DNA of 64,000 nucleotides from NCBI GenBank assembly GCA_000727475.1, contig KL647336.1, positions 62,001 to 126,000 of the forward strand, written 5' to 3'. Of the stretch, positions 25,491-50,700 are shown piece by piece (within the stretch, counting starts at the first letter, position 1; every line of letters starts with the position of its first letter). Source of the stretch: Sarcocystis neurona. Lineage: Eukaryota; Apicomplexa; Conoidasida; Eucoccidiorida; Sarcocystidae. A model generated the notes under the pieces. That model made no database searches and was not told where the DNA came from. It was given only the letters and a program-made list of their open reading frames with translations. A program made the position numbers and the translations under genes.

Positions 25491-25682
25491 TTACCTCATC
25501 AAAGTCGTCCCCGTATAAGAAGAGGTCCTCGCGAATTGCCGTGACACCAACTGTCGCACTTCCTCCACCGTCATCTTCACGCTTTCCTTTTGAGCGCTTT
25601 TCTTCTTTTCCTGAGTTCTCTCCTGCTTCGTCGTCGTCGTCACTGCTGCCGGCCTCGCTGCTGCGACTTTGCTGCCGCCTCG
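25465..25682 (-). CDS. ZC3H15: ZC3H15 exon 7, acidic C-terminus
   Basis: It follows a GCAG acceptor and reads a Ser/Asp-rich acidic linker (GSSDDDDEAGENSG) then TAIREDLFLYGDDFDE, matching the conserved ENLFTGEDLDE C-terminal motif. A GTAAGC donor-like site follows, but simple read-through ends after ten more codons at TAG. Either this is the final exon or one further tiny exon lies below. Confidence 0.85.
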
Positions 25683-28600
25683 CTGCATCGCAGCCACACA
25701 CACATACGAAAGAACTCTACCTACGCATCGTCACTAATCGAGCTAACCCTCTCCCAGCGACATACACATACATGCATACATATATATATATATCCATCCC
25801 CGCATACAGTTACACACACAGACACCCACGTATGTAAATACACAGACATGTATACACAAGAAAAAGCACTCAGATATGTGTATGGAACCAGAATGTAAAA
25901 ATCAGTAGAGGCAGATGCACACGTAAAAAGGACAGACAGACATATGTACATATGTACAGAAAGATAAAGACATGTGTCTGTGCGTACGAGCGGTTTTACG
26001 TGAGACATACGTAAACGTGTTTGCCCAGCTATTACATGTTTGGAGAAGCCCGCGCAAGTGTAGCAAAGTGTAACAGCTTCTTCATTTCTTCTTTTTTGCT
26101 TCATTTCACGAGCACTGCGAAACAAAGACTTCAAGACTTCTACTTTGTCTCTACCTACAGCGGCAGCCCCACCAGTTCCCGGCGACGCCTGCTGCTACTG
26201 TGGGCCAGGCCCCGGGCAACTGCAGACGCAAGAGGAGGAGAAGGGGACATTTTACGTCGGGAAGCTCCCCAACAGCAGCACCAGCAGCAGCCGTAGAATG
26301 TTCCAAGCAAAAGGCCACCGTGCAGCAGCAACACCAGCAGCAGAAAAAAGAAGAATCCTGTCAGCACAAGGCTACCGAGCAGTTGCAACAGCAGCAGCAG
26401 AAAAAGATAAGCATTGACAGCAGAAAGTTCCCGAGCAGCCGCAGCAGCAGGCGCAGCAGCGGAGTCGACAGGCATTGAGCGGAATTGCTAAGCAGAAGTA
26501 GCGCCTCCAACAGCAGGAAAAAAGCGACTTTTTACGGTGAGCGAAACGCCCTGCTGCAGCAGGCGACATTTTTGCCACTCACCTGGGGCTCAGTCTTTTG
26601 TATCTAAAACGGATGAGAAAACTGCCCATCAAACACAGATTCAGAAATGTCTGTTGCCGCAGAACGAAGCAGAAGACCGCACGAGAACACATCAACAGAA
26701 AATCTCCCTTCCACGCAAATCAAGCAGAGCTCCCACCTGCTCCCCGACTTGCTCCGCTCAAACCTGTCGGCCATGTACAGGAGTGATCACCTATATACAT
26801 GCACATACACATGTATATTATATATATAGCTATACAGAAGCGTTTCAAACATAAATGAATGTAGAGATATATGTCGAGAAAAAGAGAGAGAGAGAGCCGT
26901 CTGCCTGTGTCTACCTATGTACGTCCACATATACGTATATAGACATATATATTCATATATACATATACGTGCGTATACGTGGAGGAGACACCCACGTCCA
27001 CAAGATATATACCGAGCCACAAAGACAGAGACAGACACGAGGACACAGATAGATAAAAACAGAAACAATCTTCAAAAGTCCTTTTCTTTCTCTATATATA
27101 ACCTGTTCACATCTATCTATCCACACGTATATACACATATGTATGAAGACCAGACATACATATATACATATATATATGTATATACAGAAGAATTAGAAAC
27201 TCTACGTATCTCTCTCTGTCTCTATCCATCTATCTCTCTCTGTTTCTCGCTCTGTCTCTAAATATAAAATATTCAATGTGTCTACTCTAGCCTTCCTTGC
27301 ATTGTCCTCTCTTCGTATTGCTTCTTCATTTTCGTTTCTTCTCCCATTTCCGCGAAGCTGTTATCTGGTGGAGTGTTCCATGAGCCCGTTGCCGTTGATG
27401 AATTTCCCGTCCCTTCCCACCTCTTTCTCTGCTGGTCCTTCTTGACCTGCTGCTTCTTCCGCTTTTCTCTTTGCTGTTCCGTTGTTTTCTCACATGAGTC
27501 GCTACCACCGCCTCCTGCGCCTCGCCTTCTTCGCGGCGCTTCGCTTTCTTTTCCTTTCTACGTCCGCTGTTCTCCGACACTTTCTTCTTCTTCACCTTCT
27601 CGTCACTTTACTCAAAGTTCGTATCCCTTCCCTTCCTCCCTCTCTCCGGCCAGAGTTCCTCTCTCCTGAAAAGAGTAAGAAATTCCTACCGCCGCTGCTG
27701 CTGCGGCTGTTCCTCGGTGCCTGCTGCTGCTGCTACACTTCCTCACCCGCCTGTCCCCTGCTACGACTGCTGCTGCTCCTCCGCGTACCGACCCGCTGCC
27801 GCCCCTCGCACTGCTGCTGTTGCTTATGAGAGTGCTGCTGCTCCTGCTGCTTGAACAGATTGCTCTGCTGCCGCTTGGGATGTCGCTGCTCCAACTGCAC
27901 CTGGTGCTGTTCGTACACTACTGCTGCTGTTGCTGCTCGTATACTATTGTTGCTGCTGCTCGTATACTGCTGCTGCTGTTGCCGCTTGTATACTGCTGTG
28001 CAGCTGCTCGTATACCGCTGGTGCTGCTGCTGCTCGTATACTGCTGGTGCCGCATTTACTGTGGCTGTTCGAACTGCTGTTCCTGTTTGTGCTGCGTGGG
28101 CAGCTGCTGCTTCTGATGCTGGTGCGCCGTCGAGCGGCTTTCTGCTGTTGCTGTTCCTGTCTACCCGATTCTTAGCGGAAGCATTTCTCCTTACCGTTGG
28201 CTTGCTGCTCCAGAGCGTCTCTGTTCGCCTGGTCAAGAATCCGCTGATTCTCCTTCGCGACTTCCTCTCGCGTTGCTTCGTCTTCTTCTTCGTAATCTGC
28301 CTCCGCCGCGGCTCCTTCGTCGTCAACAAACAACGACGGGTCGAACTGAAACAAATCTTTCCCGGATAGAACATGCAAGCCTTTGTTCCCTCCTTTCTTT
28401 GCCTCCGCCACCCGCTGTGCTTCGACCGCGTCTCGCCGCTGGCTCTCCTGCTTCTCTTTCCACGCCAGAAACGTCTCCAGGGTCACCGGCGTCCCTCCCG
28501 GCGGCAACGCCGCCCGCTGTCAGACAGCAGCAGCAGCAGCAGCCAAACGACAGCAGCAGCAGTACACCCAGCACTAGCAGCAGCAACAGCAACTCCGTGC

Positions 28601-31359
28601 GGCAGCCGCAGCAGCAGCAACGCCATGCGACGACAGCACCAGCTGCAGCAGACAGGCGGCCGCACGGCCAGCTGGAACAGCAGCAGCGACCCCCCGCGGG
28701 TGTTCTAGCAGCCGAACAAAAAAGCGGCAGCAACGCCGGCCAGTGCCAGCCGCAGCAACCGCGTGTACACACGACACGCGGCGGCCTGACAGCAGCAGCA
28801 GCAGTCGCAGCAGAGTCGCCAAAGCAGCAGCAGCAGCACGAAGGCACCAGCACAGTAATTTCCCCCCTTCGAGAACAAAAAGGAACGGCAGCAAGTTCAT
28901 GCTGCTGAGACAAAGGGGGAAGAGAGCAAACGAGAGGTGGAGAATAACGACAGCACAGCGTTAAGAGAAAGCAAGGAGGCGTCAGCATCTCTATGCAGAT
29001 CACTGCGTTGTGTGTGAACCGGCCGACTTCGGCAAGACGATGCAGCGTAAGTGTTGCCGTCATTTGCTACGACGTAGACGTGGACGTCCTTCAACATTGC
29101 CTGCCTATTTTCTATATATATTGCAAGGAAGCCTTCCGGACACAGAACTTTCATTTGTGGGAGGAAATGTACCTCTCTCTCTACGATCACTTCGATCAAT
29201 TCCTCTTCCTGCTCCGGCTCCGGCGGCAAATCGGACTTCAGCACATAGCCTACAGCCGCAGCAGCAACAGCAGCAGCAGCAACAGCAACGGCAGCCGCAG
29301 AACACAGCAGCAGCAGCAGCAAAAGCAGCATCAACACAAGCAGTATTAAAAGAATTGGCAAACGAAGGCGGTCGGAGAGGAAGCTACGTGACTAGTACAA
29401 GGTGCAGAAGAAGAGAAGAAAAAGCAACGCAGTCGGAGAGGCAGCAACACAGCAGCAGCAGCGACAGGAGCAGCAGCGGGTGAAGCAACACAAGACGCAG
29501 CACCGGCAGATGCAGAAGTGTCGGTAGCAGCAAAGAACTGACGAGATGAAGATGGGCGCGAAGCAGACGGCGAAGCGAAAGACACAAACTAAGCAGGTGA
29601 AGCAGAAACGAAATATTTACTCCAAACAGAAGGCGCAGCAGGAGCTGCTGACGTCGAAACGATAAGGCAGCGGCAGCAGATGAGGAAGACGCAGAAGCAA
29701 CGGCACTGGGACAAGGTGAGGCGTAGGAGCGGAGGAATGAGAAGGAGAAGCGGTAACGGCTGCAACAGCAACAGGAACAGCAGCAGCAGCAGCCACACGA
29801 AGCCGCAGCTGCAGAAAAAGCAGCCGAGGCAGCTATACACGAGCGGCAGCAGAAAGAGGAGCCGCGCTAGAGAAACCAGATGCAGCAGCCGCAGCTGAAG
29901 ACGCAGCAGCAGCCGCCGCTGAAGAAGAAGCAGTCGCCGCTGAAGAAGCAGCAGCACTCGCAGTTGATGAAGCAGCGGCAGTCGCAGCTGATGAAGCAGC
30001 AGTAGCCGCTGCTGATGAAGCGGCAGTAGCCGCAGCTGATGAAGCGGCAGTAGCCGCAGCTGATGAAGCGGCAGTAGCCGCAGCTGATGAAGCGCCAGTA
30101 GTCGCAGCTGAAGAAGCAGCAGCAAACGCCGCTTCAGACGAAGCAGTCGCCGCTTAAGAAGCAGCAGCTGTCGCAGCTGTAGAAGCAGCAGCAGCAGTCG
30201 CTACAGAGGAAGCAGTCGCCGCTGAAGAAGCAGCAGCAGTCGCAGCTGAAGAAGCAGCAGCAACCGTAGCTGAAGCTGCTGCAGCCGCAGCTCAGGCAGC
30301 AGCAGCCGCCGCTGCACAGGAAGCACTCGCTGCTGAAGCTGCAGCAGCCGCAGCTGAAGTAGTAGCAGCCAAATTAGCAGAGGCGGCTGCAGAAGGGAAG
30401 ATAGCAGAGAGAGCAGCAGGGACGAGTGCGCAGAGAACAGCAGCAGAGGCGGCTGCGAACGCCAGCCGCTGCACACGAGAGAAAGAGCAGCCGCTGCAGC
30501 AGCGGCAGGATCCGCAGAAGTGACGGCACTTGCAGAAGAACAGCAGTGACGGAAGAAGCAGCAACAGCGTGAAGACTCAGGAAGAAGAAAAGGATGGAGA
30601 AAGACAGGAAGAAAGGAAGATGCAGCAGGCAACCAGAAACAGCGGTCCTTTCACGAGCAACAGGAGCACCAGCAGCAGGACAGGCAGCTGCGACGGGGCA
30701 GCAGCAGCAACCGTGGAGGCAGACGCAGGAGCGGCAGCAGTCAGAGCAGCAGCTGAACGCGGGGAAACAGCCGCAGCACGGGCAGCAGCAGGAGAGGGAG
30801 AAACAGCTGCAGCAGTAGCAGCAGCAGGACGGGAGAAACAGCAGCAGCAGCAGCAGTGGCAGCAGCTGCACAAAAGGCACAACGTTGAGCAGTAGCAGCT
30901 GCAGCAGTCACGGAGCAAAGGGCCAGAGCGGCAGTTGAAGCACGAACGGAAGCGAACCGCACGAGAATAACGACAGGGAGAACGAGCAGCAGCGGGCGAC
31001 ATGCAGCAGGACCGCGCGTCAGGGGCAACTGCAGCGGCAAACGCAGCACCAGCAGCAGAATTCCTTCTTTTGCCTTTCCACAACTTGTTTATCCCGCTGC
31101 GTTCTGCTCCCGCCTTCTTCACTATCTTTCTCGTCCCTTCTTGCCATGTACAAATCTCCCCCCTTCTCTGTCTTCTTCTTGGTTTCTCCTCTCCCGCCTC
31201 CTCCTCCATCCGCTGCTGCCGCTTCTCTTGCCGCCGCTTCTGCTGCTGCTGCTCCTGCTGCTGCTTTGGCTGTTCCTGCTGTTCCTTCTGCTCCTGCTTC
31301 TGCTGCTTCTGCTGCTTCTGCTGCCGCTTCTCTTGCCGCTGCTGCTTCTGCCGCTGCTT

Positions 31360-31408
<49 letters not shown>

Positions 31409-34400
31409 TTCTGCTGCTGCTTCTGCTGTTCACGTTGCTGCGTCTGCCGCTCCTGCTTCCGCTTCCGTTGTTTTTTCATGTCGCGCAGCTCACCCGGGGG
31501 GAGGCAGTGTCTGTATATGCATGCGTCTCCGCCGTTGGGGCAAGACCAGAACCAGCCATACTGCTTTTTCTCCACGGCTTCAAGGAAATGTTTGCAGATA
31601 ATTGCCGTTGAGTTCCTCTCGTTGTGTTGCACGTGCTTCGTCCGAATGACGTCCTCGAGTTGCGCCTGGTCCCACCCTTCCATCGTCTCGCCTGCCGCGC
31701 CTCCTCCTGCAGCACCAGCAACAGCAGCAGCAGCAACAGCAGCTAGAGTTACCTCTACACAACAAATACGTCTATGTCCATAAAACTTCTTCTCTCTCTT
31801 TCTCTCTCGTTTTCCCTCTACCCCTCACTCTCTCGCTGTACATACATATATATATATATAAATGTATATATGATTCTCTGCACGTCGGCATATATACACA
31901 CAGACATATACACATACACACACATATATATATATATTCTACTGGTATACATATATACAGGGTTTTGCGCTCTCTATCTCTGTTTCTCCCCCTCTCTCTA
32001 TGTCTCTCTCACTCTCTCGCTGTGTCTGATGTAGAGACGATTTGCCGTACGTGTGTATATATATTCATACATACATACACACATACATACATCACATATA
32101 CATACATGCATACATGCATATATATGTATATATATACACATATACCACTACTATATATATGTGTACATACGCATAGGAAAAAATATGATTGAATAAATAC
32201 ACGTACAAACTTATGCACTTATACATATACACATCTATACAAACACATATATGCATATATATACACATGTATATATATTTGGGTGTACATCTATGTATGT
32301 GTACGTATGTACACACGTATATGTATACATATACATGTAGACACATACAAAATTACATACGAATACACACCCATATATGTATACGTGTAAACACATATAC
32401 ATGGAGATATATATGTAACAGGAGAAACTTACTCTGGACACGTTGATCGGTGAATAAGTCAATTCTTTGACTTTCTTTGCAGGTCTTGGGGTCGTAGGTT
32501 CCCGCCTGAAGATAAAAACAGTTGCGGGGTCATCTCTGCTCTATACAGTACATCAAAACCTGCAAATATATACACCAACCTACGTGAACATACGCATACA
32601 AACACACACATGATAAGACTCGAATGTACCGGCATATGCACATATATACACACATATCTGTGAACACACATATACACAGATACACACCCATACACATACA
32701 CAAACGAACACGCATCTATACGTGCGTATAAATAGAGACATTCACGTATGTATGTATGCACGTATGTGTGTATATTTACATATCGAGAGGGAAACCGACC
32801 ACCAGATATTAGCTGCGCGAATATATTGATGTGTTGTACGTCCGCACACACACACACACACACATACGCACGGAGACAGAGGAGACGGCGCGCGCGTGTG
32901 CGGAGACGGGGCGCGGGCAGAGACAGCAGGGAGAGACACGGAGACAGCCGCCACGTCTCGCCCAGCAGAGACGCGACAGCGAACAGACAGCACCTCGGAG
33001 ACGCGGAGACGGGGAGACAGATGTGGCGGACGTCTACATGCATGCAGAGACACGGAGACAGCAGAGAAAACTGCAGCAGACGAGCGCGCACAACGCCGAC
33101 CGACCCCCGCCCCACGGAGAGCGGGAAGTGGAGGAGACGCGGACACCTCCGTGTCTCCGTCTTTCCCACTAAAGCGACGTGTGTCGGCGAGACACACACA
33201 CACACATACACGAGCGCATTCGTCCCAAATAACGCGGGTATCTAATAAGTGTGTGTGCAGCAAACAGAAGAGAGCCTGTCTATACATCGGTAGACGTGCG
33301 GGAGGGAAGAAGAGACGGCGACGGAAGGACAGCATTTCCGCAGGAGAAATTGGACGGAACCGCCTTCTGATCGACACACACGTGGACGCGTCTCTCTACT
33401 TCTGAAACGGGGAGGAAAATACAACAAAAAGTGCGGGAAGCGTCTCTTCAGTTTAAGCAGGTGCACATACACATACATATATGCGTTTGTGTATATATCA
33501 TGGACTTCGCCCTTCCTCTCTTGCGCTCTCGAGGCGGTGCCGCATGGCCCATAAAAACTCGTTTTCAGCAGCAGTCACATTTATGTGTGTCTGTCGCTCT
33601 CTTCCCCGTCCTTCGCGTCTCTCTTCCCGTGACTTTCTTGCTGTCGCGAGGAGGTTCACAGAAAGAGAGACACACGCACGGACGAAAAGTCCGCAGCCGC
33701 GAGCAACACTCGCAGGAAGGGTCGCGAGGAAACTCGGCGGCGTCGCGTCGCGCAGACCGACCGGCCAGGACGGAAGGCAAAGCGGAGGACTCTCTATCTG
33801 CCAAGAAAACGACCCTCGCCAATGTGTGTGTGTGTGTGTGTGACACAGAATGAGGAAGGCTGTCCCAGGCTGTCAGGAGGAACAGGCGAAGGACGGAAGC
33901 AAAACGCATTTCTTCCCCGAGACGTCGTATCTCGCCAGCGTCGGCGACACACGCATGCAAGGCACAAACGCAGAGAAGTCACAGGGGAAAACGCGCAGAA
34001 AGACGAAGCAGCAGCTCTTCTTCAAATTTCTTTGCTGCTGATGTGCTTCTCCTTTCCTCTCCTGCTCTCTCCTCCTCAAAAGGAAACGCACGTGCGACAA
34101 TTATCTCATCGAAGCTCCACTTCGTGTACGCCAACGTCTTCTCCTGCCTCATGCTGCTAGACAAGGAGAGCTACCAACGGCGCTGTCAAACAAGGACAAC
34201 TTCCTGCGCGCACTCCCCATTATAAAGTACATATACGCACACGCACCATATGGCCAGACGCAGACATCAACATATATATATGTATATATGGGAGTACACG
34301 CATGCACACAGCACATGCAGATGCAAGCATCAGTATAGGGATATACGCGTGTGGGAGTACACACATGCACGCCCAGCATATGGGCAGACGCATATATATA

Positions 34401-37400
34401 TATATATATTTATACATGTATACATATCCATATGCATGTATGTATATGGGAGCACATGCATGCACGCCCAGCATATGGGCAGTCGCATACATTAACGTAT
34501 ATATGTGTTTGTGGTGGTGTTACGGATGTGTACAGACACCCAAGTGGTCGGCCTGGTGAAAGTGTCCACGGTGTACGTACACTTCCCGAGTGGGACGGAA
34601 GATGCCGGTCAACGCGCACAGTTGGCGTGTCTTTCGAGATGAACTGCACTTGCGAGAAGACATTTCTTTCCCTTCCTTTTCCTCTTTTCTTTCTGTCTTT
34701 CTGCGCGTCTCTTCTTCCCCCCCGCGAACAAACACGGGCGGTCACAGTGGACACGTGCCGGTGTACGCACACCCCACGCAAAGGCTGCTGCGCGTACCCG
34801 GGAGTTGCCATCAACTGCGATTTTTTTTACGTTTTCTGTGCCTCGGAAGAGCGACGCCAGGAGCGCCTGCTGCTGCGCTTCCTTCTTCTTCTGTTCTTGC
34901 TCTTCCTTCTTCTTCGCGATCAGCGCCTGCTCACCGCCTTTCTGCGGACCTTTCACCTGCTGCTGCACCGTCTTGATGTACCTGTTGACCCACCCGCACA
35001 AGGCACCCCACACCACACACACATACACACACACTTTTATACATACACACATACGTATATATGTGCATAGACGTGCAGGAGCAGCAAACTCCCCCCATCA
35101 AGCATGTGTGTATATATATAGATACATATGTATGGACACAGATACATGTGTATATGTACGTGTGTGCGGAATACGCGTAGTTTGCCACCCACGGACGTAT
35201 CTGCTTTCCATCCCGGTGGGCTGCGAGTGCACCGCCACCAAACACGCCCATACACACCCACTACATGCTTGGGTGTATGTACACTCTATTACCATCTTGT
35301 CGAAATGGGTGTGTATACACTGTGTAACGAACAGATCGACATTCGGTGTATACACACTGGGTGTACATGCACTCAGTTATAAACACACCGAAACTGGGTG
35401 TACATACATTGCACTATAGTTACACCTAAACTGGGTGTATATACACTGTAGTCACGCCGAAATTGGGTGTACACGCACTCCACTACACACACATATATCG
35501 AAACGGGTGTATATACACTCTACAGTCACAGCGAAACTGGGTGTACGTACACTCCGTACAATCATCCACACTGGACTACATGCACTGCTCTGGACACACC
35601 TCCATGTGTACACGCGCACCCCACCATTTAACAACAGACAACACACGTATCCACAGACACAGACCTCTTTCTAAAGAATGTGAACATCTACACATACACA
35701 TATACACACATACACTCATAAATGTCTTCCGCTCGGTGTCTCTGTCTCTCTCTTTGGATATGGGGAGGGCCACGGGAACTACGTCAAACGCGTTGAGACG
35801 GAGAGGGCGATAATAGAGGAAGCGAAGCGACCCTCTAACGTCTGCTGGAAAGTATGTAATAATACATCAACGCACACACACACACACACACAAACACATA
35901 TACAGACATACACACATATGCATACAGAGAAGGAGAGACGTTTACAGCATCTCGCAGAAAACTGCAGAGAAGACGAAAGACTGAGCGGACGAGAAAAAGA
36001 CGGCGAAGAGAGGGGGACCTACGCTGGCAGCAGGGCCGCTATCGAACATACGTACAAGGGGTGCAGCGGCACAGGGATAGAAGAAAAAGGCGGCGGCACG
36101 TAGCAACAGCAGCAGCAGCAGCAACGCAGCAGCAGCTGCGCAGGCAGAAAGAGGGGACAAACGAAAAGCGAGACGCAGATATAGAGAGAAGACCCCAGGC
36201 ACACATCCGTATAAAATGAGAAGAGTACTTCCTGGTATGTTTGGGGAGCAGCAGCCAGAGAGAGATCCAGACGCCACTGACAAGACGCATGCACCTGGAT
36301 AGACAAATCTTCAACAGCAGCAGTTTCTCTTTCTTTACAGAGGACAGACACTCCGAGATCTCCCCCTTTCTCTCCCCGCCCAAATACTCATCACGCTGGT
36401 ACACGCATGCGCATATGTTATATATATGCTTGTGCATATATAATATCACTTACACATCTGTATATATACTTACTTCACTCAGCTAACTTCACTCGGACGC
36501 AGTCATCTACATACACATGTACAGATAAATGCAAGCATATACGTACTTACATATACATATATATTTGTATATATGTAGAACAAATACATATATAGAGAGA
36601 GACAGATATACGTCTACAAATGTGTGCGAACATATATATATATATATATGTGTTTGTACGTGAACAGATATATACAACCATACATATATATATATATATA
36701 TACATACGTTTACAGACATACGCAAGCAGATATATACACACGTATATATATATATGTATGTATGGAAAATACTGTCGGGCGTACACACACACACACACAA
36801 ATATGCAGATACACGTGTGTGTGTACGTGTGTGGATGTATGTGTGCGCAGAAGTACGGATATAGGTACCTACGTATCAATCTACCTACTTCTCTGTATAC
36901 CTATTCATGGACATATGTGTGGATTTGATTTGATAAATGAATGGGTGTGGGTGATTGATTTATAATGCGGATTTCCCGCGCATATATACACATGTGTGTA
37001 GGGGGAGCTGAGCAGCTCCCCCTCTTTTCGTATGTGTCTAGACACGTAGACTTCTAGAAAGAGAGAAAAGGGGGGGAGAAGGCGACAGCAGAGGAGAACG
37101 AGCGAAGTGGGACGAAAAGCAGAGAGGACTCCTAAAGAGTCAAGAAAGGAGCAGCAGGTAGAAAGAAATCACACGTATTCACTCCAGCAGCACAGAAGAC
37201 ACGTGCAGGCGAACAACAGCAACGAACCATCATCATACCTACATATGTATTATATCCAAACACGAATACGCACACAAATATATACGTGTATATGAATGAT
37301 ATATATACATATATTAATCCGTAAATACAAAGATATATATTTACATACACACGAATGCATCACACACACACACACATACATACATACGTATACACACATG

Positions 37401-38862
37401 CATACATAAACACATATACATGTATACGTATGGAGCCATACATACATATACGGAGAAAGAGAAATTTCCTCTGCAGCAGGATCAGCAAACGTCGAGAGAA
37501 AGTTGTCTTGATGTGTGCGTAGCGCGTGGAGGGAGGCAGAACAGCAGTGGCGTCAGCAACAGCGCAGCAGGAGCAGCAGCAGAACTGACAGGTGGGGCAC
37601 GAGCAGGGCAGCAGCAGCAGCCGCAGCAGGACGCACAGCAGCTGCAACAGATGTGAACGTGTTCAGCGCACTCGAATGCTACGAAAAAAGACGAAGCAGC
37701 AGCAGGAGGGTCCCGCAAAGCAGCAGCGGCTGCTGCAGCTTCCTCGAAATTCTCGTGGAAGATGCTGCAGCACATGCGACGCACGGCGTCCGGACTTGTG
37801 AAGCCCCGCGCGGCCACGTCGAGGACAAAGTCGGAAATCGAAAAGAAAGAGAGAAAAAGAAAAGCACCTCTCCGCCGTCGCCGGGTGGACTTCATGTTCG
37901 CATGCACACATATACATGTGTGCACATATATACATATATATATATGTATACAGAGAGAGAGAGAGATAGAAAGATGTACCGGTAGAAGCGCTAAGTAGAC
38001 AGGAGCGACACAAAGTCGACTATTTATATCTCTGTCTATCTATCTCTATTACTAGCTATCTCCATATCTATCTACCTTCTGTCTTCCCGTGTCTCTCGGC
38101 CTCTCCCTCCTTTTCTATGATGACTGCTGCACAGTCACATGCGGAACAGCAGACGCGCACAAATGTGTGTTTATCCATCTTGATCCCCCCTCCCTTTCCC
38201 TTTCCTCGTCTTTCTTCTCTTTTCCCTTCTCTCGCGGCAGATCGGTAGGACGGAAGAAACGCCGGGGGACGGTTATGGACGCGTAGGGGAGGGTCACGTC
38301 ACACAGAGACGTCCAGGTTGAAAATCTTCAATATGATTGGAGAAGGTAATCATTTATTTGGTAGAGTCAGACAACGCCCTTCGTGTCTAGACATGTGCGC
38401 ACGCCTATATCCATAAGACACACTTACTTAGAGAAGGGTGTCAGTATTACAGACTCGCTCGCGCTCACGTATATATGCATATGTAGGAAGACAGAGAGAG
38501 ACACACAGAGAGAGAAACATACATATATATATGTGCGTATATAATATATACACGCATGTATGTGCACACATATATATAGGGAGAGAGAGAGAGAGAGAAA
38601 TATCAGCGACACCTACATATGAAGGCCTGCATGTAGATACATGCGTACATTTCCGGCAAGAGAGAGAGGCAGGCTGAAAGACAGGTGTATTTATTCAAGG
38701 ATTCGAGAGTTTCCCTGAGCGATGAACTCACTTCTGCACGGCTTTGCTTTTGTTTTTGTTTTTGAGGCCGAATGTCTTGTCTTCGACGATTTTCTGTTTC
38801 TCCTTCTCTGCAGCCTTCTGCATCCCCTTCTCCGCTTTCGGGTCCTTCTTCTTCGGCGGCAT
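25465..38862 (-). CDS. ZC3H15: ZC3H15/DFRP1 (Tma46-like) zinc-finger protein, seven exons
   Basis: This is a homologue of ZC3H15/DFRP1 (yeast Tma46), a cytoplasmic ribosome-associated partner that stabilises the GTPase DRG1. Exons, in coding order, are 38862-38732, 34981-34798, 32505-32433, 31706-31494, 29249-29173, 28516-28195 and 25682-25465. Family landmarks appear in order: EDKTFGLKNKNKSKAVQ near the N-terminus, YIKTVQQQVKG, RIDLFTDQR, the second CCCH finger CKHFLEAVEKKQYGWFW...C-x6-C-x3-H followed by a GYVLK motif, a Glu-rich ELIE segment, TPVTLETFLAWK, LFQFDPSLFVDDE and a C-terminal LFLYGDDFDE. All six junctions are GT-AG and phases 2,0,1,1,0,1 agree. The last exon can read through a GTAAGC donor to a TAG at 25465, giving about 405 residues against 426 in human. 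The first CCCH finger, expected between exons 2 and 3, was not found, so a phase-0 microexon may be missing. Family membership is very likely; exact ends of exons 4 and 7 are less sure. Confidence 0.9.
25683..28194 (-). repeat. ZC3H15 intron 6 with CAG islands and microsatellites
   Basis: It contains a CAG island (about 26160-26470), TA/ATAC microsatellite (about 26790-27260), purine/pyrimidine-rich sequence (27260-27690) and a CTG island with a repeated CTCGTATACTGCTG unit (27690-28150). A 92-codon minus-strand frame ending in TAG at 27282 (reading RKRWEGTGNSSTATGSWN) looks protein-like and could be an alternative exon. Confidence 0.65.
28195..28516 (-). CDS. ZC3H15: ZC3H15 exon 6
   Basis: After RAALPPGG it reads TPVTLETFLAWKEKQ, then GLHVLSGKDLFQFDPSLFVDDE, the conserved DFRP1 block, then an acidic coiled stretch. 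The donor is GTAAGG after one base of a codon. An in-frame TGA lies just upstream of the acceptor, confirming that the upstream CAG-rich sequence is not coding in this frame. Confidence 0.93.
29173..29249 (-). CDS. ZC3H15: ZC3H15 exon 5
   Basis: A short exon after a TAG acceptor completes the split Gly codon and reads GYVLKSDLPPEPEQ then EEELIEVIVERE, matching human GFVLK...SLEDLIERE. It ends in phase 0 at GTACAT. It joins exon 6 to restore ERERAAL, as in orthologues. Confidence 0.9.
29250..31493 (-). repeat. ZC3H15 intron 4, filled with CAG/CTG arrays
   Basis: This 2.2 kb intron is mostly trinucleotide repeat. On the plus strand it is CAG-rich from about 29250 to 31000 and CTG/TTC-rich from about 31190 to 31450. 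Long Gln/Lys, Ala, Ser and Leu frames run through it on both strands. It is called intronic because the flanking exons splice in phase and restore the conserved LPPG-YVLK junction. Confidence 0.8.
31494..31706 (-). CDS. ZC3H15: ZC3H15 exon 4, second CCCH finger
   Basis: It encodes TMEGWDQAQLEDVIRTKH, then the second zinc finger C-x17-C-x6-C-x3-H with the conserved YGWFW and CPNGG, then YRHCLPPG. The donor GTGAGC sits inside the PPG motif and splits the Gly codon. Reading on instead gives a long Lys/Gln repeat frame that has no family counterpart. A second in-phase acceptor at 31691 would drop five residues and give a closer family match. Confidence 0.92.
32433..32505 (-). CDS. ZC3H15: ZC3H15 exon 3
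   Basis: This is a 24-codon exon, between a TTCAG acceptor and a perfect GTAAGT donor, reading TYDPKTCKESQRIDLFTDQR. It corresponds to the family segment just after the first CCCH finger (plant RKGEKIDIYSDKR). It is too short to stand out as an ORF and was found by homology. Confidence 0.9.
32506..34797 (-). other. ZC3H15 intron 2
   Basis: It contains ATAC and CA microsatellite (32580-32860), a GAGACACGGAGACAG-like purine-rich stretch (32870-33150), unique sequence (33180-34200) and a three-copy minisatellite (34240-34495). It should hold the exon for the first CCCH finger. A manual search for C-x7-C-x5-C-x3-H on the minus strand found none. Confidence 0.55.
34240..34495. repeat. Three-copy minisatellite
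   Basis: Units carry CAGCATATGGGCAG with a GGGAGTACACRCATGCA arm. The clearest copies are at 34374 and 34469, 95 bp apart, with a partial copy at 34245. Lies in ZC3H15 intron 2. Confidence 0.75.
34798..34981 (-). CDS. ZC3H15: ZC3H15 exon 2
   Basis: The exon begins at a CAG acceptor with the single base that completes the split Lys codon, then reads YIKTVQQQVKG and a Lys/Gln/Glu coiled region ending in SLFRGTENVKKIAVDG. This matches the family block between the TFGLKNK motif and the first zinc finger. The proposed donor is GTACGC, in phase 0. The downstream frame stays open for a while, so the donor position rests on homology and phase. Confidence 0.88.
35263..35600. repeat. Minisatellite built on GGTGTAYRTACACT
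   Basis: Eight or more units of roughly 35-42 bp. Each has a CGAAAYTG lead and a GGTGTA-N2-TACACT-like dyad, for example at 35272, 35398, 35433, 35506 and 35541. Units are diverged outside the dyad. It lies in ZC3H15 intron 1. Confidence 0.8.
37640..37850 (-). other. Protein-like frame inside ZC3H15 intron 1
   Basis: The minus strand reads SISDFVLDVAARGFTSPDAV then RRMCCSIFHENFEEAAAAAA, which looks like folded protein rather than repeat. It lies in intron 1 on the same strand. The plus strand is also open here (reading SALECYEKRRSSSRRVPQSS). Neither direction has a clean acceptor. Confidence 0.3.
38732..38862 (-). CDS. ZC3H15: ZC3H15 exon 1 (start)
   Basis: The ATG opens MPPKKKDPKAEKGMQK and continues to EDKTFGLKNKNKSKAVQ, the hallmark N-terminal block of ZC3H15/Tma46 proteins. 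The exon ends after two bases of a Lys codon at a GTGAGT donor. The Lys-rich start is typical of the family. Confidence 0.93.
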
Positions 38863-47704: not shown

Positions 47705-50700
47705 ATGCTGCTTCTTCAGTCAGGTGCTGCTGCTGCTGCAGCATTAAATGGGAAGCAGTGGAATAGAAGAGCTGCGGCAGCACTTTGTTTCCTTTCTGAT
47801 CGAATCATTGTCCTTCGACCGACTTTTCACGCACACAGAAGTGTTACCAGCAGTCCAAGCAGCACAAGCGGCAGCAGCGGCACAAGCGGCAGCATCAACC
47901 CCGTGGGCTGGAGCAGCAGCACCCGAAACAGCAGCGGCAGCACCAGGAACGGCAGCAGCAACGCTCAGGACGACAGCAGCTGCCTCACGAGCAGCGCAAA
48001 CGCGTCTCCTACGACAGGGGTGACACGAGAGTTGCCGCAGCAGCAGCTGTTGCTCTCTGCTGCGTCCATCTCCTCAGCGCCAGCGACTGTCATGCACATG
48101 CAGCAGCAGCAGGGGCGGGGGAAAAAGGAGCGGGAAAAGGAGCGACGACAGCAGAAGGGAAAGCAGCAGCTGCAAGCGCGGCAGCACGAAAAACAGCAGC
48201 AGCTGCAAGTGCAGCAACAAGTGCAGCAACGGCGCGTGAAACAACATCAAAAAACGGAACAGCGACAGCCGCAGCACCCGCCTTACCAACAACAAATCTG
48301 GTGCTTGTGGGCCCCTGGGGGAAACCGCAGAGCCGTGCGTTACGGTGAAGTCGCAGGAGCAGCAGCATGTCCTTTGCTTGTCCTTGCTGCTGCAGGTGAT
48401 GCTCCTGCTGCTGTTACCCACCCTACTTCTCTCCCTCCTCTTCTTGCTGCTGCGAGAACTTTTGTTCCTGCTGCATCTACTAACTCTGTCATTGTAACTC
48501 CTGCTATTCCTCCTGCTGCTGCCACCCACTTCTCGTCTGCCGCCGCTCCTGTTGCGTCGTCGCCCTCTGCTGCGGCGTACTCTCCGACGGCTGCTGCCAC
48601 TGCTGGTCCTTCCACTGCAGCTGCTACTCCTCGTGCTGCTGCTGAGAGGGGGGGGGGGCTTCCGCGACCCACTCCTCGTGAGGATGCTGCTGCTGTTGCT
48701 GCTCCTTCGATCGATATCTTTCCGGATGGTAGTGCTGCTGCCTCTGCTGTGCCTGCTGCTGCATTGACTGCAGTCCCCTCTCTTCAGTATCCTGCTGTTG
48801 ACTCTTCTGCAACGCCACTTCCTGCTGCTACTGCTATTGGTGCTCCTTCCTCTGCTGCCGCCTCTTCTTCTGCGGGTGAGACTGCCACACAGCTTCCAGC
48901 TGCTGCTGCTGCTTTTTCCGCTGTCGATTCTTCATTCTTCCGTCGTCCCCACGAAGTTGTTCAAAAACAGCTGTTCTTACTAGAGAACCCTGTTGCCCCT
49001 TCCGCTGCTGCTGCTGGTGGTGTGCGTCCACCTGCTGCTGCTGCTGCGACGGCGTCCTATTCTCCACCGCTTGCTCCTGCGGCCCCGCGTCCTCCTCTTG
49101 CAGCACCAACAGCAGCTTTGAGCGTGCTGCTGACCAGCAGCGGCAAGAAATTTTGCGGTCGAAAGAATCTTCGTAGCAGCCGCACGAGGGCTGCTAGTAC
49201 AACAACCAGCAGCAGCAGCATCAGCATGAGAACAAGCCGCAGCGCCGTCAACAGCAACAGCCGCGCCACACGTGATAATAATAGAAGAAGGAACCTCAAG
49301 AGTCGTGGTAGTAGCAGCAGCAAAAATAATGAGAGTGTCGGAGTAGCAGCGTCATCAGCAGCAGCAGGAGGAAGACTGTCCTTGAAGCGGCTGGAGAAGA
49401 GAAGGGAGGAGAAAAAGGCAACGACTTCTCTAGATAAGCCAGCAGAAGCGGGAGCAACAGCAGGAGAAGGAGGAGCAAGAGGAGCAGCAGCAGCAGGAGT
49501 GGAAGCAGCGGCAGCCATAGGAACAAAAGGTAGAGCAGGAGCAGCTGCGGCGGAAAGATCAGCAGAAGGAACAGGAGAAGCAGCAGTTGCAGGAGAAGAA
49601 GCAGCAGGAGCAGGAACAGCAGGAACAGGAGCAGCAGGAGAAGAAGCAGCCGCAGCAAGAACAGCAGCAGATGCATGTGGTCGAATTGCCCCTAATTCGG
49701 TAGGCATCTGGAAGGTGCTTCTTTTGGGGTATCTTCGTATTGAACAGCAGCAGCAGCGGCAATTTGGCGGGCACTGCTATAACCGTGGCTTCACTACTGC
49801 TGCCGCGCCGGATAATCGACTTCAACAGCAGCAGCAGCAGCAGGGGAAGCATCACCGACAGCAGCAGGAGAAGAAGCGGCAGCAAGACAAGAAGCGGAAT
49901 GAGCTCGTGAGGCGAAAGCAACAGCTGCAACAGCCAGAGGAGGAACAGCGGCAGCAGGAACAGCAGAGAGAAGAGGAAGAGGGAAAGAAGCAACAGCAGC
50001 AGCAACAGCAGCAGCAACAGGAGCAGCAGCAGCAACAGCAGCAGCAGCAACNNNNNNNNNNNNNNNNNNNNNNNNNNNNNNNNNNNNNNNNNNNNNNNNN
50101 NNNNNNNNNNNNNNNNNNNNNNNNNNNNNNNNNNNNNNNNNNNNNNNNNNNNNNNNNNNNNNNNNNNNNNNNNNNNNNNNNNNNNNNNNNNNNNNNNNNN
50201 NNNNNNNNNNNNNNNNNNNNNNNNNNNNNNNNNNNNNNNNNNNNNNNNNNNNNNNNNNNNNNNNNNNNNNNNNNNNNNNNNNNNNNNNNNNNNNNNNNNN
50301 NNNNNNNNNNNNNNNNNNNNNNNNNNNNNNNNNNNNNNNNNNNNNNNNNNNNNNNNNNNNNNNNNNNNNNNNNNNNNNNNNNNNNNNNNNNNNNTGCAGC
50401 AGCAACGGCAGCAGCAACAGCAGCAGCAACAGCAACAGCAAGAGCGGCAGCGACAGCAACCAACAGAGAGGAGGCATTTGAAAAGGAAGCAGGAGTTGCT
50501 CCTTATGACAGACGACGTTGCAGGTGGTTCTCCTTGTTCTGCTGCTGATATTGTTTCTTCTTCTTTCTCTGCTCGTGCTGCTGCCTCTTCGTCTTCCGCC
50601 GCTGTTTCTGCTGTCCCTTTGCTGCGGGACTCGCTGCTTCAATTCAAAAATGCGGCTGCTGCCGTCGCGAAGGAGAGAGCAGCACAGGCGTGGTGCGTTT

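Follow-up and report, generated by a model that had tools for sequence, protein, structure and literature searches.

The stretch of DNA analyzed here, referred to as the window, comprises 64,000 nucleotides (nt) of the Sarcocystis neurona genome (assembly GCA_000727475.1, contig KL647336.1, positions 62,001 to 126,000 of the forward strand), and coordinates given below are those of the window. The minus-strand gene crossing positions 29250..31493 is the ZC3H15/DFRP1/Tma46 orthologue. Its fourth intron (29250..31493) is located between exon 4 (31494..31691, SETMEGWDQ...CLPPG), which holds the retained CCCH finger, and exon 5 (29173..29249, GYVLKSD...VERE). It is densely filled with CAG/CTG triplets, and an open frame of 1107 bp (30577..31683) reads from exon 4 into the repeat. 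Comparison at the sequence level indicates that intron 4 is very probably a normal GT-AG intron filled with interrupted CAG/CTG-rich DNA, and the open frame was judged to be non-coding past 31494.

Joining of seven exons, all on the minus strand, resulted in a model of 391 amino acids (joined translation), which ends with exon 7 at 25495 and does not include any short last exon beyond 25494. In addition to the exons named above, the model comprises exon 1 (38732..38862, MPPKKK...KAVQK), exon 2 (34798..34981, YIKTV...DGNSR), exon 3 (32433..32505, AGTYDPK...DQRVQ), exon 6 (28195..28516, RAALPPGG...QQAN), and exon 7 (25495..25682, an acidic tail up to DDFDE). Exons 1 to 5 align with homologues, and exons 1, 2, 4, 5, and 7 were also recognized by their motifs. 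For exon 4, an alternative acceptor would place the exon start at 31706 and add five residues. Intron 5 (28517..29172, 656 bp) features CTG in sense ahead of its acceptor, and intron 6 (25683..28194, 2512 bp) features CAG in sense by the donor and CTG in sense in its second half.

The gene product matched the Pfam family PF16543 (DFRP_C) with 59.8 bits, above the cut-off of 27.5, the bulk of the match being encoded by exon 6. Among the matches listed, the best named homologues originated from Toxoplasma gondii (68% identity over 99%) and Besnoitia besnoiti (76% over 82%), with other named entries from Eimeria (54–60%) and Cyclospora (55%, and 47% for a second entry). Pfam scans returned no zf-CCCH match in the protein at E ≤ 0.01 and none across the window at E ≤ 0.001; the second CCCH finger (C...C...C...H) is recognizable by homologue alignment. 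The ZC3H15/DFRP1/Tma46 proteins of animals and fungi possess two CCCH fingers. The DFRP_C domain is common to these proteins and the S. neurona product, whereas the two-finger form was not found here: a first finger was not clear in the minus-strand protein encoded by 25495–38862 nor in the aligned apicomplexan homologues, and it appears to be degenerate or lost. On the basis of this assignment, the product would be a DRG-family regulatory, ribosome-associated protein.

Intron 4 extends from the donor G at 31493 to its last base at 29250 (2244 bp, GTGAGC...TGTAG, phase 1), agreeing to the base with the interval given in an initial annotation of the sequence. As that annotation had proposed, removal of the 2.2 kb rebuilds the conserved LPPG-YVLK motif: exon 4 (...CLPPG) and exon 5 (GYVLK) are rejoined, and the 391-residue model then reads ...YRHCLPPGYVLKSD... 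across the junction. A GT donor, an AG acceptor, and restoration of the frame upon removal are the features of a spliceosomal GT-AG intron. Ahead of the acceptor, the intron is free of AG for 132 nt, the terminal TAG being the first AG. The splice-pair score, worked out by hand with the measure used for the gene sample described below, is approximately 6.3, and only 0.75% of 400 random placements scored at least 5.5. With 274 CAG/CTG triplets, the interval exceeds the 90th percentile (216) of 221 windows of equal length taken from the contig. The description of the interval as CAG DNA holds for its repeat density but only partly for its orientation: CAG stands in sense over roughly the first 300 nt, and from approximately nt 400 onward, up to the acceptor, the sense triplet is CTG. 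Longer periods of 24 and 69 bp were also detected within the intron.

To this evidence, the homologues add the continuity of the protein across the exon 4/exon 5 junction. The proteins considered were the best 120 of 308 and the best 120 of 2798 matches, amounting to 225 proteins together, and the junction was counted in the 200 of them carrying YGWFW.C; the other 25, including P0007 and many YGWLW/YGWRW variants, were left uncounted. In total, 197 of the 200 run through the junction without a break: 184 match LPxG[YFHW]xL at 18 or 19 residues, and 13, read by eye, are contiguous with a substitution. Entries with transcriptome-derived names, e.g., P0002 and P0124, are among the contiguous homologues, and yeast Tma46 (structure 7rr5) aligns across the junction without an insert. 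A Gln/Lys insert at the junction was found in none of the 200 listed homologues. The three remaining proteins diverge exactly at LPxG: P0147 (Eimeria intestinalis) and P0149 (E. magna) contain unrelated inserts exactly at the junction, and P0200 diverges after LPEG. Likewise, P0007, a Cystoisospora suis model, features unrelated residues up to GYVLK. These four divergences probably represent the footprint of a mis-modelled intron held in common at this position. From the exon joins, the stops described below, the conservation, and the common position, we infer that intron 4 is spliced.

The open frame itself begins with the ATG at 31683 in the zinc-finger exon and stops at 30577 (1107 nt), in agreement with the length given in the initial annotation. 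The frame carried from exon 4 encounters six stops, at intron nt 914, 1199, 1337, 1658, 1874, and 2099, so that the product of a transcript retaining intron 4 would end after 500 amino acids, without exon 5. Hence, the read-through frame never reaches GYVLK and, unlike that of a homopolymeric amino-acid repeat (HAAR), does not cross the repeat to join the coding sequence downstream. Because CAG-class triplets hold no stop codon in any frame, intron 4 is stop-poor in all six frames, the longest stop-free runs being 203, 177, 304, 185, 201, and 174 codons. In the 221 same-size windows of the contig, the mean stop-free length climbs with the CAG+CTG content (Spearman 0.49). The 1107-bp frame is of unusual length, yet no coding function is needed to account for it, since the carried frame stays open for 914 nt because of composition and not because of coding. 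A DDHD match on the read-through frame was below the Pfam cut-off and was rejected as a composition artefact. Homologues, splice sites, stops, and the common intron position all lend good support to the claim that the repeat frame in this gene is intronic and not coding.

To what extent repeat-containing frames elsewhere in the genome originate from introns was evaluated by means of the gaps separating neighboring domain pieces in genes for kinesins, chaperonins, and kinases (120 gaps in all). Of the rows available, 64 of 64 were entered for kinesin, 69 of 71 for chaperonin, and 67 of 145 for kinase, with 134 of 297 kinase candidates scored. In total, 59 of the 120 gaps were fetched whole, 58 of them with a GT-AG pair. 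From the other 61, 18 were taken as acceptor windows by picking every third in the list regardless of content; openness was judged on the whole gaps only. Seven of the 58 gaps are stop-free in the carried frame. One of these (98 nt) shifts the frame and has a splice score of 6.2. The other six range between 120 and 969 nt, are all multiples of three, and have splice scores of no more than 2.5; if introns were independent and random in length, the probability of all six being in frame would be (1/3)^6, about 0.0014, the six being located in four genes. They translate mostly to Ala/Gly/Ser/Gln-rich inserts, and CAG strongly exceeds CTG in sense in five of them, the sixth, on C14, having 49 to 40. 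These six gaps are probably coding insertions, as judged from their sequence. The stop-free in-frame inserts of kinase, chaperonin, and kinesin domains lie at C25:180941-182408, in a chaperonin and a kinesin on C1, and in a kinase on C14, with open gaps at, e.g., C25:180931-182379 and C1:8925451-8926131.

The remaining 52 gaps comprise 45 with a score of 3 or more and seven with a lower score; a CAG-class array is present in 14 of the 52. The initial annotation had extended its reading to other genes by suggesting that introns may also be the source of long poly-Gln frames in other parts of the genome. The sample speaks against this generalization, since all six stop-free gaps of at least 120 nt (of 58) look coding. 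The genome most likely harbors coding inserts in addition to intronic arrays, and the warning against intron artefacts applies case by case; as a general rule, it is not supported by the sample.

The following explanation is proposed for intron 4. A GT-AG intron, at a position common to other coccidia, would have been filled with interrupted CAG/CTG-rich DNA, and this stop-poor DNA would leave the exon 4 frame open for 914 nt by its composition. On the acceptor side, the CTG-sense repeat would provide an AG-free, partly pyrimidine tract of 132 nt up to the TAG, and the CAG orientation, with an AG every three bases, would be unable to serve there. Spliceosomal 3' splice sites generally feature an AG exclusion zone and a polypyrimidine tract. 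The AG-free stretch observed here is alike, the difference being that it is often built of a CTG-sense trinucleotide repeat.

This arrangement recurs in the sampled introns. Orientation was counted in the 52 kept introns, including the seven scoring below 3, with the six open gaps left out. Within the last 200 nt, acceptor triplet excluded, 140 CAG and 345 CTG triplets stand in sense, with more CTG in 36 introns and more CAG in seven (Wilcoxon, 2e-6). At 3–30 nt ahead of the acceptor, two CAG and 44 CTG were counted in 45 introns, a 22-fold excess. For arrays, 70 acceptor windows were considered (the 52 whole introns and the 18 acceptor-only windows, the ZC3H15 orthologue being excluded), and 21 of the 24 windows with at least 12 triplets were CTG-dominant and three CAG-dominant (two-sided binomial, 2.8e-4). 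The corresponding values were 25 versus 5 of 32 windows at a threshold of at least 10 triplets and 34 versus 10 of 48 at a threshold of at least 8; when the six open gaps were put back by hand, the count at 12 or more triplets became 22 CTG versus 6 CAG. Two acceptor-only windows with at least 10 triplets, C22:1909534 and C9:86345, are CAG-dominant. On the donor side, the first 200 nt of the 52 introns showed no bias (CAG 207, CTG 228): donor arrays with at least 10 triplets (n = 15) comprise seven CAG-dominant and seven CTG-dominant cases, and those with at least 12 triplets three CTG versus four CAG (Fisher, 0.03 against acceptors). A general hairpin design with CAG at the donor and CTG at the acceptor, as introns 4 and 6 had suggested, was rejected because the sampled donors are unbiased. 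In the ZC3H15 orthologue, the CAG/CTG counts in the last 200 nt are 0/3 for intron 1, 3/3 for intron 2, 0/20 for intron 4, 2/29 for intron 5, and 0/6 for intron 6; for intron 3, the value is 2/9 if its last base is 31707 (31692 in the joined model). No earlier report of an orientation bias at acceptors turned up in a literature search, the coverage of which lay largely outside subscription journals.

Avoidance of AG may cause this bias, given that only the CTG orientation fits an AG-free zone: AG recurs at every third base of a CAG run and is absent from a CTG run. Alternatively, the bias could just reflect a general T-over-A skew of intron 3' halves, AG avoidance having no role. TTT over AAA (397:136) and TGT over ACA (514:216) are equally skewed in the same windows, and the mean AG-free stretch (42 nt ahead of the acceptor, 15 nt between internal AGs) differs less than the median (35 versus 7 nt). 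This median difference, together with the 22-fold excess of CTG over CAG at 3–30 nt in a region where T/A is 2.9, speaks against a plain skew, and the skew alone appears a possible but rather doubtful explanation.

For intron 4, a second alternative is alternative or regulated retention, which would give rise to a truncated isoform with a Gln/Lys/Ala tail in some stages. The long open frame past the donor, with no early stop, would indeed provide a long novel tail. However, the product would lose the DFRP region encoded by exons 5–7, and the extra sequence in the two Eimeria models (P0147 and P0149) is unrelated to Gln repeats and looks like an annotation error, making retention very unlikely. 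Even less probable, to a degree close to dismissal, is a coding insertion, of the type found in Eimeria proteins, that would place a HAAR after the CCCH finger and ahead of the DFRP domain: such inserts seem to occur in this genome, as judged by the six open gaps that keep the frame and have more CAG than CTG in sense, and the length of intron 4 is 3n, but the carried frame contains six stops, the splice sites are strong where those of the six coding-like gaps score 2.5 or less, the retention product ends before exon 5, and the listed homologues lack a Gln/Lys insert.

Several observations weigh against an ordinary intron shaped by composition and against the role of repeat orientation in splicing. 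A read-through of 914 nt is uncommon even for the composition of intron 4 (order-2 Markov models of either the whole intron or its first part, 2000 simulations each, give a probability of 0.03–0.09 for a carried frame open for at least this length), and nothing near it was found among the 45 well-spliced gaps, in which read-through past the end of the domain hit has a median of 75 nt and a maximum of 246 nt. The intron length is divisible by three, and, as indicated by the seven versus seven donor arrays, introns do not generally place CAG first as introns 4 and 6 do. Furthermore, the CTG excess reaches several hundred nt upstream (ratio of 1.8–3 at 50–500 nt), part of it being explained by a T-over-A skew of 1.2–1.4 over the same distance; this distant excess and the TTT and TGT skews indicate that AG avoidance is not the whole cause.

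The repeats themselves are subject to an apparent limit in length. Pure-tract counts refer to 264 kb of the contig carrying the window, and genome-wide placements to the 123-Mb assembly (74 contigs). CAG-rich DNA is common on the contig (379 of 2610 bins of 100 bp), and 866 pure CAG-class tracts of at least 9 nt were counted, eight of them measuring 19 nt and none 20 nt or more. The chance of one more unit falls from 0.39 to 0.15 and 0 at 4, 5, and 6 units, respectively; AC, AG, and AT repeats, reaching 13–16 units, show no such fall at 4–6 units. Genome-wide, 228 placements of (CAG)7 and five of (CAG)9 were obtained with overlaps counted, the DNA search used skipping simple repeats and the direct count on the contig being in agreement. 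Since the arrays are interrupted and intron 4 features periods of 24 and 69 bp, they likely grew through the duplication of longer units. Of the five N runs of the contig, one (343 N, at 50052–50394) is located within a CAG-rich array, and two others adjoin AT repeats. Because of the N run within the CAG-rich array, an assembly effect may contribute to the ceiling on pure runs, which counts against its reality.

In Eimeria, CAG trinucleotide repeats and HAARs have been described (PMC9131526, PMC4287421), and excerpts of the E. falciformis report count runs of 9–16 CAG units among the most abundant simple repeats of that species (PMC4287421). As far as these excerpts go, S. neurona is alike in the abundance of CAG-class repeats and, as would follow from the inserts described here, in their insertion into conserved domains and their Ala/Gly/Ser/Gln content; it differs in its short pure tracts and in the intronic nature of the intron 4 example.

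With respect to further genes in the window, no Pfam family was detected in the six frame stretches scanned, each of 5000 residues (1–15 kb in two forward frames, and 38–53 kb in three reverse frames and one forward frame); the same type of scan over the gene itself recovered DFRP_C, indicating that the method works.

Tentatively, and with some reserve, it is conceivable that splicing makes use of interrupted CAG-class repeats: CTG-sense arrays would serve as AG-free 3' tracts, with orientation policed in every single intron, and CAG-sense blocks that are in frame and lack splice sites would be passed on to the protein, so that orientation and stops would decide between removal and translation, and a pure ceiling of about six units would keep the arrays from ordinary microsatellite behavior. 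Intron 4 in itself is ordinary. In practice, gene predictors can run exons into the CAG-rich introns of coccidian genomes, for which the ZC3H15 orthologue provides a clean example; models of the gene from Cystoisospora suis and two Eimeria species go wrong at the exon 4/exon 5 junction as well. As a usable rule, a repeat block is probably coding if it contains no stop, measures a multiple of three, and lacks splice sites; stops together with a CTG-sense run leading into YAG point to a probable intron. The orientation bias connects the strand of the repeat with the function of splice sites, and it is this orientation rule and the ceiling on pure runs that deserve further attention.

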